NCBI RefSeq assembly: GCF_009184905.1
Contig: NZ_WESC01000019.1
Coordinates: 1-63,785, forward strand
DNA length: 63,785 bases
Origin: Parvibaculum sedimenti
Lineage (GTDB): Bacteria > Pseudomonadota > Alphaproteobacteria > Parvibaculales > Parvibaculaceae
Direction of reading: 5' to 3'
Part shown: in pieces, positions 4,828 through 9,015 of the stretch
How positions within the stretch are numbered: position 1 is the first letter of the stretch
Layout of the letters: every line of letters begins with the position of its first letter
Translations under genes and position numbers: made by a program
Notes under the pieces: model-generated
The model's database searches: none
Told to the model about the DNA's origin: nothing
What the model saw: only the letters and a program-made list of their open reading frames with translations

Positions 4828-5042
4828 CGTCGGCGTTCCTTGAGGCAGTTCAATTCCAATGCCGAACACTTACCACGACGAACGCAGCTCTGGCACCGCC
4901 CCTGGACATCCCAGCAACATTATGGCGAGGAAAGACCGACGGAAACCGCCGTTGATGCCGTGTGAACGAGCGGGCATCTAATGCGCGGCCGCGTCGCAGC
5001 CTCCCGCATCCCTCCATTCCAGCAAGCACCGGAGTTTTCAAC

Positions 5043-5330
5043 TTGTCCCCCCGCCTTCTCCTCACCGCCGCGATCCCCCTCCTTCTCGCGGGGTGCGCCT
5101 CCACGGAAACCGTCATCGCGACCCAGGCCGTGACACTCTCCTGCACCTATGTGAAATCGACCAGCATCGAGGAAGCCGCGGGCGGACTCGAGGTCGAGGT
5201 ACCGACGACGATCACGGTCACGAAGACCGCGACCACTGCGGAAGAAGCCGCCAACGCGATCAAGAAGGAAACCGACGGCAAGCCCTGCACACAGATCGCC
5301 ATCAACACGAACGGCGCCGCGTCTAAGTAA
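5043..5330 (+). CDS. Small predicted lipoprotein, 95 aa
   Basis: The N-terminus is a short lipoprotein signal peptide, basic then hydrophobic, ending in the lipobox LLAGC with Cys18. The mature part is hydrophilic, rich in Thr, Val and Ala, with two further cysteines. I chose the TTG at 5043 because GGAG lies eight bases upstream and the signal peptide then has normal length; an upstream GTG at 4962 would add 27 unlikely residues. I do not recognise a family. The protein is expected to be anchored to the inner or outer membrane. Confidence 0.65.
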   Translation: MSPRLLLTAAIPLLLAGCASTETVIATQAVTLSCTYVKSTSIEEAAGGLEVEVPTTITVTKTATTAEEAANAIKKETDGKPCTQIAINTNGAASK

Positions 5331-5337
5331 TCGAGAT

Positions 5338-5366
5338 GCAGCGGCGCGAACCAATCGTGCCGCTGC
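5338..5366. terminator. Hairpin between convergent genes
   Basis: GCAGCGGC (5338-5345) and GCCGCTGC (5359-5366) form an 8-bp stem in the 39-base gap between the lipoprotein stop and the convergent PhnZ-PhyH fusion stop. There is no T tract, so it is a hairpin that may help end transcription from both sides. Confidence 0.4.
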
Positions 5367-5369
5367 TCC

Positions 5370-6782
5370 TCATCCCGCATGCGCCGTCGGCGTCGAGACG
5401 TGGAATTTCGGATCGTCGAAATGTGCCCGCTTCTCGGCATAATAGCGCGCATACCACTCGCCCTCGCGAGCGGCGTTGAAGGTCAGAAACATGGCGCGGC
5501 GCGACGCGGCGCTGCCATTCGCCCCCGAACGATGCGGCGCGAAGGAATCGAAGATCACCAGATCGCGGCTCGAAGTCTCGACGGAGCGCCATTCAAGCCG
5601 GTCCGCGATCTCCTCCAGAATGTCGCCATTGTGCGCACCGCCCTTGTGGAAGCACAGAAGCGAACGCCCCTCTACGATCGCCTCCACGGCGTCTGACCGG
5701 CGCGGCGCAAAGGCCGCCCAGTTCTCCGCGAATTCGAGGCAGCCGTTTTCGCGCGTCGCCGCATCGACCGAGATCATCGCCGTGACGTTATAGCGCGGAC
5801 CGAAAGCCTGATAGGCGGCAAAGTCCTGATGCGGACCGAAAGCACCGCCACCGGGGTGCTTCTCGTTTTCCTTGTCCTTGAAGGGCAGGAAAGGTTCTCC
5901 CGCCAAGGCCTCGATCATGGGTGCGATCCGCGCCGCCACAAGGGCGCGCAGCTCATGACTATGCCCGATGAGATATTCGAAACGGCAAAGCTGCGTCGGG
6001 TCTGCCACCTCCGGCACCACGATGAGCCCATCAGGCGTCTCCCGCGCGAAATCTGCCGGGCTCCATCCGCTCTCTTGCGCCTTACGCAGCAACGCCGTCG
6101 CCTCCGCACCCATGCTGTGCGACAACTGATCGAAGGCCGCCGCCTCATCCGCCTCGAAGAAATTCCGCAGCACGAGAACACCGTCGCGCCGAAAGGCGTC
6201 TCGCTCGGCGGCACCAATCTGTGCGACCGGCAGATGACGCAGGAAATGCGAGACAGGCGGCGTGACGGCAAGAGGGTCTTTGGCCTCCTCGTCGATCCGG
6301 CGCAGGCACAATGCCTCCTCCGCGAATGCCAGGCCACGAAAGGCTGCCACCTCGTCCTCGCTCATCGGCCCACCCTGCAACTTCAGGCTCAGCACCGAGT
6401 CGGGCGCAAGCTTACCGAAATAATCCGGATCGACGGCGCAGAGATAACGTTTCGCTTCAACATGGAGGCGCACGGGTTCGGAAACAGATTGGGGCAGCCG
6501 CTTCGCCAGCCACTTCGCGCCGAGGATTTCATGCCGGTCGTCGATGCCCTGCTCTGCCGGATTCTCGCCCAGCTTGTGGATCATGTGGCCAACATCGTGG
6601 AGAAGCGCGGCAAGCACCAGCGCGGGTGCCTCTCCCCGCGCCTCGGCCAGCGCCGCGCTCTGCAATGCGTGTTGAAGCTGGCTGATATCTTCGAGCCCGT
6701 AGCGGAGATTGGCGCGCTCCGCATAAATGGCTTCGATTTCGGATTGCAGCCGGGACAAGGCTGTCGATTGGTCTACGGACAT
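5370..6782 (-). CDS. Fusion of PhnZ-like HD oxygenase and PhyH-type dioxygenase, 470 aa
   Basis: Two oxygenase modules lie in one chain. Residues about 1-180 form an HD domain of the phosphonate-degradation (PhnZ) type: Y28, E31, H38, H62-D63 in LLHDVGH, H84, H107 in HVEAKRYL and D164. This is the same set and nearly the same spacing as the metal and lid residues of PhnZ. Residues about 190-465 form a phytanoyl-CoA dioxygenase (PhyH) domain with the iron triad H318, D320 (GPHQD) and H417 (APHRSG), plus arginines at 428-429 suited to 2-oxoglutarate. In known systems PhnY hydroxylates 2-aminoethylphosphonate and PhnZ then splits the C-P bond; here both steps may sit in one protein. No phosphonate transporter is nearby, so the substrate is inferred. 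Start at 6782 has GAGG upstream. Confidence 0.82.
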   Translation of the reverse strand: MSVDQSTALSRLQSEIEAIYAERANLRYGLEDISQLQHALQSAALAEARGEAPALVLAALLHDVGHMIHKLGENPAEQGIDDRHEILGAKWLAKRLPQSVSEPVRLHVEAKRYLCAVDPDYFGKLAPDSVLSLKLQGGPMSEDEVAAFRGLAFAEEALCLRRIDEEAKDPLAVTPPVSHFLRHLPVAQIGAAERDAFRRDGVLVLRNFFEADEAAAFDQLSHSMGAEATALLRKAQESGWSPADFARETPDGLIVVPEVADPTQLCRFEYLIGHSHELRALVAARIAPMIEALAGEPFLPFKDKENEKHPGGGAFGPHQDFAAYQAFGPRYNVTAMISVDAATRENGCLEFAENWAAFAPRRSDAVEAIVEGRSLLCFHKGGAHNGDILEEIADRLEWRSVETSSRDLVIFDSFAPHRSGANGSAASRRAMFLTFNAAREGEWYARYYAEKRAHFDDPKFHVSTPTAHAG

Positions 6783-6903
6783 TCTGTTTCGCCTCACGCG
6801 CTGAACCGACATATGAGGCATCATCGCCCGGCTGGCTCGCCGGGCAATGTGAAACTTTCATTGCGAAATGCCGAATGCCCTCCGCAGAGCGCAGATCCCC
6901 GAA

Positions 6904-9015
6904 CTAGGCGTTCTTCGGGCCCTTGCGCTTGGGCTTGTCGAAACCGCCGCCGGCTTTTCCAGCCGGCTTGCCACCCGGTTTGCCATTAGGCTTTCCGCCG
7001 GGCTTGCCGGGCTTCTTGCCCGCCCAGGCAGGCTTGCCTTTACCACCAGCCTTGGGGCCACCGGCTTTGCCGCCAGGCTTTCCGTCATGCGCCTTTTGCA
7101 CGGGATGCTTGCTCTTGGGCTTGGGCTTGCCTGCATGGTCCGGTTTCGGCGTCCATTCCTTGGGCTCATGGCGCGGACGCTCCGGCGCGACGTCCGCGTA
7201 TTCACGTTCCGGCTTGCGACGTTCCGGCCGCGCTTCCTGTTCCCGGGGCTCCCACTTGGCACGGGGCTCGCGGGTTTCACGCGGCTCGCGGCGCGGACGC
7301 TCGGCTGGTTCGGAATGAGGCGTACTCTCCGGCGCAGGCGCGTCGCCGCGTACACGCTCGATGCGCGCTTCGCCTTTCGGCACGTTACGGATTGATGCCT
7401 CGAACTGATCGGCAACGCTGCCGTCAACTTCGAAGCGTGTCTCCTGGTCGAAAATGTCGATGCTGCCAATCTCGCGGCGCGTGACGCCGCCCTGGCGGCA
7501 GATCATCGGCAGAAGCCAGCGCGGATCGGCATTCTTCTGGCGGCCGACATTGAGCCGGAACCAGACACCGTTCGAGAGGCCCGAAACGCCCGTCTTCCGG
7601 CGCGGGGCGGCTGCGCGGGGCTCGCGTTCATTGCCACGCTCGCGGTCGCGGCGCGACTTCGGCCCGCGCTCCTCGCCCGTCTCGCGCAGCGGACCGGCAT
7701 CGAGCACTTCTTCCGGCGCGGGAAGCTGCGAACGATAGATACGCGCCAGAGCGACGGCGATCTCTTCCGCCGAACGCGCCGCAAGCAGCGCCTTCGCCAT
7801 GGTCAGATCGTCCTCGTCCGCAGCATAGGTGAAGATGTCGCTTTCGAGGAGGCGTTCCTGATCGAGCGTCTTGATGTCGTCGACGGAAGGCGGCGCGACC
7901 CATTCAGGGCGGATGCGCGCATTGTTGAGCAATTGCTCGGCTTTGCGGCGGCGAGACTGCGGAACGAGCAAAACGCTGACGCCCTTGCGGCCGGCGCGGC
8001 CCGTGCGGCCGCTGCGGTGCTGAAGCACTTCCGCGTCATGCGGCAGATCGGCATGAATGACGAGACCGAGGTTCGGAAGGTCGATGCCGCGCGCCGCGAC
8101 GTCGGTTGCCACGCAAACCCGGGCGCGCCCATCACGCAAGGCTTGCAGCGCATGATTGCGTTCGCCCTGGCTCAACTCGCCTGAAAGCGAGACAACCGAA
8201 AAGCCGCGCTCCGAAAGGATCGCCTGCAAATGCCGCACGGCTTCGCGCGTGTTGCAGAAGACAATCGCTGTCGGCGCTTCGGCATAACGAAGCACGTTGA
8301 CGACCGTGTGGCCAATCTCGTTTGCCGCGATGCGGATCGCGCGATAGGTAATGTCCGCGTGGCCGCGCTCGCCGCCCGCCGCCTGAATACGCAGCGCATC
8401 GCGCTGGTAGGTCTTCGCAAGCGTTACGATTTCCTTCGGTAGCGTCGCGGAGAAGAGCAGCGTACGGCGCTCCTTCGGCGTTGCTTCCAGAATAAATTCG
8501 AGATCTTCGCGGAAGCCAAGGTCGAGCATCTCGTCGGCTTCGTCGAGAACCACAGCCTTCAGCCCTGCGATCTTCAGACGGCCGCGTTCCAGATGATCGC
8601 GCAGACGCCCCGGTGTGCCGACGACGATGTGAGCCCCCTGCGCAAGCTGACGCGCCTCGGCGCGCGGATCCATGCCACCGACGCAGGAAACAACGCGCGC
8701 CTTCGTATAGGCATAGAGCCACGCAAGTTCGCGCTGAACCTGCAAGGCAAGCTCGCGGGTCGGCGCGATGATGAGGGCGAGCGGATCACCTGCCTCGCCC
8801 AGAAACTCCGCCTCGCCAAGCAGCGTCTCGCCCATCGCGAGGCCATAGGCAACGGTCTTGCCGGAGCCCGTCTGCGCCGAGACGAGAAGGTCGCGCCCGA
8901 CCGCTTCCGGCTCAAGCACGGCATTCTGCACGGGCGTGGGGTCATTGTAATCGCGTTCCGCCAGCGCTCTCGCGAGCGGCGGGTTTGTCGGTAAAAAAGC
9001 CAAAGCTGAAACCAA
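6904..9015 (-). CDS. DEAD-box RNA helicase with DbpA-type RNA-binding domain and basic tail, 703 aa
   Basis: An ATP-dependent RNA helicase, probably in ribosome assembly or mRNA turnover. The core has the Q motif region (DYNDPTPVQ), Walker A AQTGSGKT (47-54), VLDEADEML, FSATLP, and the second RecA domain with HRSGRTGRAGRKG. After the core, roughly residues 455-530 resemble the DbpA/CsdA RNA-binding domain. From about 540 to the end the chain is low-complexity, rich in R, E, K, P and G, finishing with repeated GKPGG-like units. The start is uncertain: the frame begins with a TTG at 9015, and a TTG at 9003 is an alternative. It stands alone between genes of unrelated function. Confidence 0.9.
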   Translation of the reverse strand: MVSALAFLPTNPPLARALAERDYNDPTPVQNAVLEPEAVGRDLLVSAQTGSGKTVAYGLAMGETLLGEAEFLGEAGDPLALIIAPTRELALQVQRELAWLYAYTKARVVSCVGGMDPRAEARQLAQGAHIVVGTPGRLRDHLERGRLKIAGLKAVVLDEADEMLDLGFREDLEFILEATPKERRTLLFSATLPKEIVTLAKTYQRDALRIQAAGGERGHADITYRAIRIAANEIGHTVVNVLRYAEAPTAIVFCNTREAVRHLQAILSERGFSVVSLSGELSQGERNHALQALRDGRARVCVATDVAARGIDLPNLGLVIHADLPHDAEVLQHRSGRTGRAGRKGVSVLLVPQSRRRKAEQLLNNARIRPEWVAPPSVDDIKTLDQERLLESDIFTYAADEDDLTMAKALLAARSAEEIAVALARIYRSQLPAPEEVLDAGPLRETGEERGPKSRRDRERGNEREPRAAAPRRKTGVSGLSNGVWFRLNVGRQKNADPRWLLPMICRQGGVTRREIGSIDIFDQETRFEVDGSVADQFEASIRNVPKGEARIERVRGDAPAPESTPHSEPAERPRREPRETREPRAKWEPREQEARPERRKPEREYADVAPERPRHEPKEWTPKPDHAGKPKPKSKHPVQKAHDGKPGGKAGGPKAGGKGKPAWAGKKPGKPGGKPNGKPGGKPAGKAGGGFDKPKRKGPKNA

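Follow-up and report, generated by a model that had tools for sequence, protein, structure and literature searches.

The DNA analysed here (the window) is a stretch of 63,785 nucleotides from Parvibaculum sedimenti with 46 gene calls. On its minus strand, at positions 5370 to 6782, lies a gene for a 470-aa protein in which an HD oxygenase is fused to a PhyH dioxygenase, as delineated by Pfam, NCBIfam, sequence matches to the PDB and full-length homologues on other contigs (L005–L008). The frame opens with an ATG at 6782 and its stop codon ends at 5370. An alternative in-frame ATG at 6824 would give a 484-aa protein; in the nearest homologous fusion (L005) the start residue corresponds to the ATG at 6782. 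Pfam places an HD domain at residues 37–112 (4.2e-07) and, behind it, a PhyH domain at residues 197–430 (1.6e-15; 58.4 bits against a PF05721 cut-off of 22), both above the curated cut-offs, which confirms the proposal of an earlier note that a PhnZ-type HD protein and a PhyH protein share one polypeptide here. A sequencing or frame artefact is ruled out by the presence of the same fusion end to end on four other contigs, and since these carry the full-length frame, a local assembly error was rejected as well. Base differences between the window gene and that of L005 fall mainly at third codon positions (85 of 140 and 124 of 205 in the two halves).

The N-terminal half (residues 1–185, positions 6228–6782, minus strand) is of the PhnZ/TmpB type, judging from a match to TIGR03276 (Phn-HD) at residues 14–182, the alignment with PhnZ and TmpB, conservation and its position in a tree. 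The TIGR03276 match (8.9e-60, 201.3 bits) lies 13 bits below the cut-off of 214.6, as did the 204 bits obtained in a genome search. Scores were far below cut-off with the NCBIfam TmpB model (7.6e-45) and the hydroxymethylphosphonate (HMP) dioxygenase PhnZ1 model (9.4e-34, 117 of the 300 bits needed). Among PDB sequences, TmpB (6npa, 2.3e-31) is the best match, followed by PhnZ (4mlm, 1.4e-17). The C-terminal half (residues 186–470, positions 5373–6227, minus strand) is defined by the PhyH match, invariant residues, an alignment with ectoine hydroxylase and a second tree. Residues 263–457 match the PhnY-type methylphosphonate hydroxylase model NF052437 (6.7e-33) with 114.2 bits against a cut-off of 500. 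Since the cut-offs of TIGR03276 and NF052437 were both missed, we do not file the fusion under either family. Single-sequence PDB matches of this half are distant (PHYHD1, 0.0021; ectoine hydroxylase, 0.029), while a five-row profile retrieved ectoine hydroxylase at 9.7e-08.

Pfam scanning of eight proteins around the fusion gave MMPL, CYTH, FMN oxidoreductase, DEAD helicase, class II aldolase and TetR assignments and a small protein without a family. No phosphonate family was present among the eight, consistent with the earlier remark that no phosphonate transporter or aminotransferase adjoins the gene, nor among ten adjoining proteins scanned at L005–L008. Thus, no phosphonate transporter or regulator was seen among the scanned neighbours of any of the five fusions, which counts against a phosphonate-related role. 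Immediate neighbours differ among the five fusions, as far as the crude, script-made neighbour calls go. A scan for pho boxes returned two matches in the window against 3.1 expected, none of them upstream of the fusion. A strong hairpin without a T run lies at 6822–6849, between the helicase gene and the fusion, and the 136-nt region folds at a z of −2.2.

Convergent with the fusion gene is a small lipoprotein-like ORF at 4962–5330. In genome G029, a close relative that is 57% complete and has a contig spanning the fusion site, both are missing: the flanks are collinear with the window (84–87% identity in the main blocks), and about 100 bases stand in place of window positions 4886–6912. At L005 the fusion likewise has the end of the helicase gene upstream of it, in the same orientation, and the small ORF recurs about 2.4 kb beyond the fusion (88% over 78 aa). 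Because L005 has the helicase and the small ORF in common with the window, we lean towards a loss in G029 rather than a gain in the window. Searches of the P. sedimenti genome itself found no PhnJ (controls positive in 1 of 14, E. coli) and no PhnD-like protein above the family cut-off (controls positive in 10 of 14). No AepZ/PhnW-like protein exceeded its cut-off either, a weak negative, since none of the 14 controls did so.

Metal ligands and motif residues

In the PDB-match alignment, Y24, E27, H34, H58, D59, H80, H104 and D161 of PhnZ correspond to Y28, E31, H38, H62, D63, H84, H107 and D164 of the fusion, with offsets of +4 and then +3, exactly as had been predicted. The H...HD...H...H...D diiron ligand pattern of PhnZ/TmpB-type HD oxygenases is therefore present. 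In the PhyH half, the predicted iron triad H318, D320 and H417 falls on the H-x-D...H motif of ectoine hydroxylase, and a distal arginine (R428/R429) is invariant among the fusions. Y28, H38, H62, D63, H84, H107, D164 and the three triad residues are likewise invariant across all five. Among 75 stand-alone HD relatives the diiron ligands are constant wherever a letter is present, with the exception of D164 (72 of 73). K111 (74 rows with a letter) and R161 (73 rows) have no alternative residue in these relatives; they align with K108 and R158 of PhnZ, which we take to be its phosphonate-binding residues. The window protein also has the YxxE loop (Y28/E31), corresponding to Y24/E27 of PhnZ, whose role is given in the available part of a review of HD oxygenases (PMC8177086). 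Every PhnZ residue named in the earlier note occurs in the window protein, but E31 is no constant of the family: among the five fusions, L005 has serine at this position, as do 60 of the 75 stand-alone relatives, only seven of which have glutamate.

Distribution and relatives of the two halves

Peptide patterns taken exactly from the window protein were used to scan genome contigs, and of 82 confirmed stretches 80 entered the analysis. At least 79 loci matched, with both halves in one frame in at least four (L005–L008); since only exact patterns were used, four is a lower bound for other fusions. These proteins are 59–77% identical to the window protein, and one of their contigs (L007) is labelled Parvibaculum. 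In a sample of 40 genomes of the family, the fusion was present in four, all among the 27 of its own genus, and in none of the 13 other members. Across the class, with at most six candidates scored per genome, three of 385 genomes matched a profile of the PhyH half: that of the window itself, G362 with a lone PhyH, and G336, where the match was weak. In the phylum sample, with at most four candidates per genome, 33 of 398 genomes had an HD relative, and the single match running through to the end of the PhyH half was the window's own. The search for further two-domain proteins thus found the fusion on at least four more contigs and rarely in the genome samples. None of 219 pattern matches in viral contigs was a relative, and none of 31 matching plasmid records reached 80% query coverage. 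Five long HD frames (L076, L147, L154, L158 and L165) were rejected as further fusions since Pfam found no second domain in them. The window gene is a conserved, rare and probably functional bacterial fusion of both oxygenases of oxidative C–P cleavage.

A tree of the HD half was built from 53 rows, after 108 of 112 segments had been kept (four short ones were left out) and thinned to 50. All five fusions fall together (97/86), which fits a single origin of the fusion. Their nearest group is that of Caulobacter-type HD proteins (98/86), and they nest within a mainly alphaproteobacterial clade of otherwise stand-alone proteins (100/99). TmpB falls into a different clade (99/88), HD proteins paired with a separate PhyH are likewise apart (96/92), and PhnZ is a weakly placed long branch. 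At 105 stand-alone HD loci, with flanks ranging from none to 6 kb, the PhyH profile gave no match; this does not exclude PhyH/HD pairs, since plasmids of Rhodococcus and Dietzia as well as G228 have both genes side by side. A TmpA partner was identified beside one HD gene (L075), and its BLAST cluster takes in L077, L080 and L081. An aminoethylphosphonate-type LysR regulator accompanies stand-alone HD genes at eight loci by BLAST cluster, of which the one member scanned scored below cut-off.

Matches to the PhnY-type model at 1e-25 occurred in 39 of 385 class genomes, again with at most six candidates scored in each, and at 29 of 30 matching class loci no HD gene lies within about 1.5 kb (the remaining locus has one). 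Similarity to this model is therefore non-specific, and we rejected it as specific proof. In a 39-row PhyH tree, in which the characterised PhnY* is not included, the five fusions group with the lone PhyH of G362 and a PhyH from a plasmid of Azospirillum (100/99). These seven, with three PhyH proteins adjoining HD genes, are split from 29 unpaired PhyH proteins (99/97). Among these ten proteins, fused and HD-paired types stand apart from each other. Long-branch warnings apply to G362, Azospirillum and L114, so these joins are not final.

The Azospirillum thermophilum plasmid locus (L104, 5565–10033) encodes the phosphonopyruvate decarboxylase AepY (401.8 bits, above cut-off) and, two genes on, the PhyH frame joined to an AepZ/PhnW-like stretch (1.8e-71, both profile ends missing). 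No PEP mutase was seen in the incomplete gene table of this locus, which may be a cluster for hydroxy-AEP biosynthesis or contain two genes that a frame change has merged. The plasmids of Rhodococcus (L102, 4897–9259) and Dietzia (L103, 4847–9196) have a cassette in common, comprising a methionine-synthase-like gene, a 2OG oxygenase, a YaaH transporter, PhyH and HD, in which the PhyH and HD genes overlap by four bases. Their products come nearest to the methylphosphonate models, yet remain below the cut-offs.

Proposed function and alternatives

The earlier note had taken hydroxylation and C–P cleavage to be carried out by two separate proteins in known pathways. This does not hold as stated in view of PhoF of the fungus Fonsecaea multimorphosa, a fused PhnY/PhnZ which, according to a review, was characterised on 2-aminoethylphosphonate (AEP) and 3-aminopropylphosphonate (APP) (PMC10574752). 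Like the window protein, the bifunctional PhoF unites a dioxygenase of the PhyH type with an HD oxygenase of the PhnZ type in one chain (PMC10574752, as far as available); it is fungal whereas the window fusion is bacterial, and the likeness is drawn from its description. PhnY* and PhnZ of HF130_AEPn_1, which convert AEP to glycine and phosphate, are of the same two domain types, and the PhnZ ligands and YxxE motif recur in the window protein; they are, however, separate proteins, and the window HD half scores closer to TmpB than to PhnZ. TmpB of Leisingera is the better match, but the HD tree puts it in a different clade, and its partner TmpA is a dioxygenase of the gamma-butyrobetaine type, not a PhyH protein. 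The PhyH and HD pairs of the Rhodococcus and Dietzia plasmids and of G228 also encode both enzymes together, but as two genes with PhyH first, and on separate branches in both trees. PhoF reportedly has the dioxygenase first and the HD domain last, the reverse of the window protein. No mention of a bacterial PhnY/PhnZ-type fusion was found in the open-licence literature, which leaves out most subscription journals. The one-chain idea is thus already known, and the window gene seems to represent it in a rare bacterial form. Judged by its anatomy, the fusion would resemble PhnY/PhnZ and PhoF in the way it works.

We consider it about 70% probable, on sequence evidence, that the fusion is a bifunctional phosphonate oxygenase of the PhoF kind. 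The C-terminal Fe(II)/2-oxoglutarate half would hydroxylate the carbon adjoining phosphorus in an aminophosphonate, with AEP as the likeliest candidate. In the resulting alpha-hydroxy compound, the N-terminal mixed-valent diiron HD half would then cleave the C–P bond and so release phosphate, together with glycine if the substrate is AEP. One gene would thereby provide a complete C–P cleaving route in which PhnW, PhnX and C–P lyase are not needed. The earlier suggestion that one polypeptide carries out hydroxylation followed by C–P cleavage gains support from the domains, the ligands and the precedent of PhoF (PMC10574752, in the part available); the chemistry, the order of its steps and any channelling of the intermediate are what we infer from these. 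That both halves are placed beside relatives with links to phosphonates counts in favour of a phosphonate oxygenase, while the missed TIGR03276, TmpB and PhnY cut-offs and the lack of E31 in L005 count against it. For AEP itself as the substrate we see about even odds; it is favoured mainly because the PhyH half groups with the Azospirillum frame that is joined to an AEP-aminotransferase-like stretch, which is indirect evidence.

The same grouping bears on the possibility that the two-step chemistry is kept on a different substrate, such as APP, N-methylated AEP or another alkylphosphonate, and makes it, in our view, unlikely. Position 31 is variable and amine recognition may therefore differ; PhoF accepts APP too, according to the review (PMC10574752), and the lack of a PhnD-like protein above cut-off in the genome also speaks for such a substrate. 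A fusion of two unlinked activities, with the PhyH half acting on a non-phosphonate compound and the HD half taking up (R)-HAEP from outside, would fit the absence of a nearby PhyH at all 105 stand-alone HD loci, and also the available part of a survey of 19,425 complete genomes, which counts seven phnY*Z clusters and finds phnZ without PhnY* in 24 of 75 phnWAY and 15 of 1,186 phnWX clusters (PMC8154272). We nevertheless judge it improbable, given that five genomes keep the fusion, its metal ligands all intact, at identities as low as 59%, and that its PhyH half is placed with HD-paired PhyH proteins. A methylphosphonate route, running through hydroxymethylphosphonate to formate and phosphate as with PhnY/PhnZ1 of Gimesia, is suggested by the matches of the two halves to the methylphosphonate hydroxylase and HMP dioxygenase models; these scores are far below the cut-offs, and the better-fitting loci (L114 and the plasmids of Rhodococcus and Dietzia) group apart in both trees, with even L102 below the cut-offs, so that we hold this route to be very improbable.

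If the fusion is indeed a bifunctional phosphonate oxygenase, one gene frees phosphorus from a common natural phosphonate. Annotation pipelines would name such a gene after one half only, and surveys counting PhnY/PhnZ pairs or phn operons would therefore miss it. With two O2-activating iron centres naturally in tandem, the protein would make transfer of the hydroxy-intermediate directly testable. More tentatively, and with clear doubt, the fusion could be an independent second invention of a one-chain C–P cleaving oxygenase: a bacterial protein with the domain order of PhoF reversed, formed by fusing an AEP hydroxylase such as is encoded next to phosphonate-making genes (where it would yield 1-hydroxy-AEP) to an HD oxygenase of the stand-alone alphaproteobacterial type, so that the AEP-to-glycine route comes and goes between related genomes as one gene.

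Stand-alone HD relatives at other loci

At L066 (2045–10099; also L064 and L068 by BLAST cluster), a Caulobacter-type HD oxygenase gene is accompanied by genes for a TonB receptor, a LysR regulator, a DUF5690 protein and a phosphocholine-type phospholipase C (718.6 bits, above cut-off); this locus could represent a route for phosphonolipids. Reyranella and its kin (L009–L063) have a conserved order of a PCMT-like gene, a gene for an 887-aa protein without a family match, the HD gene and a serine/threonine dehydratase gene, with no recognisable hydroxylase at these loci. In G362 (L098, 6–2082), two ABC ATPase genes, by eye like those of C–P lyase PhnK and PhnL, precede the HD gene.
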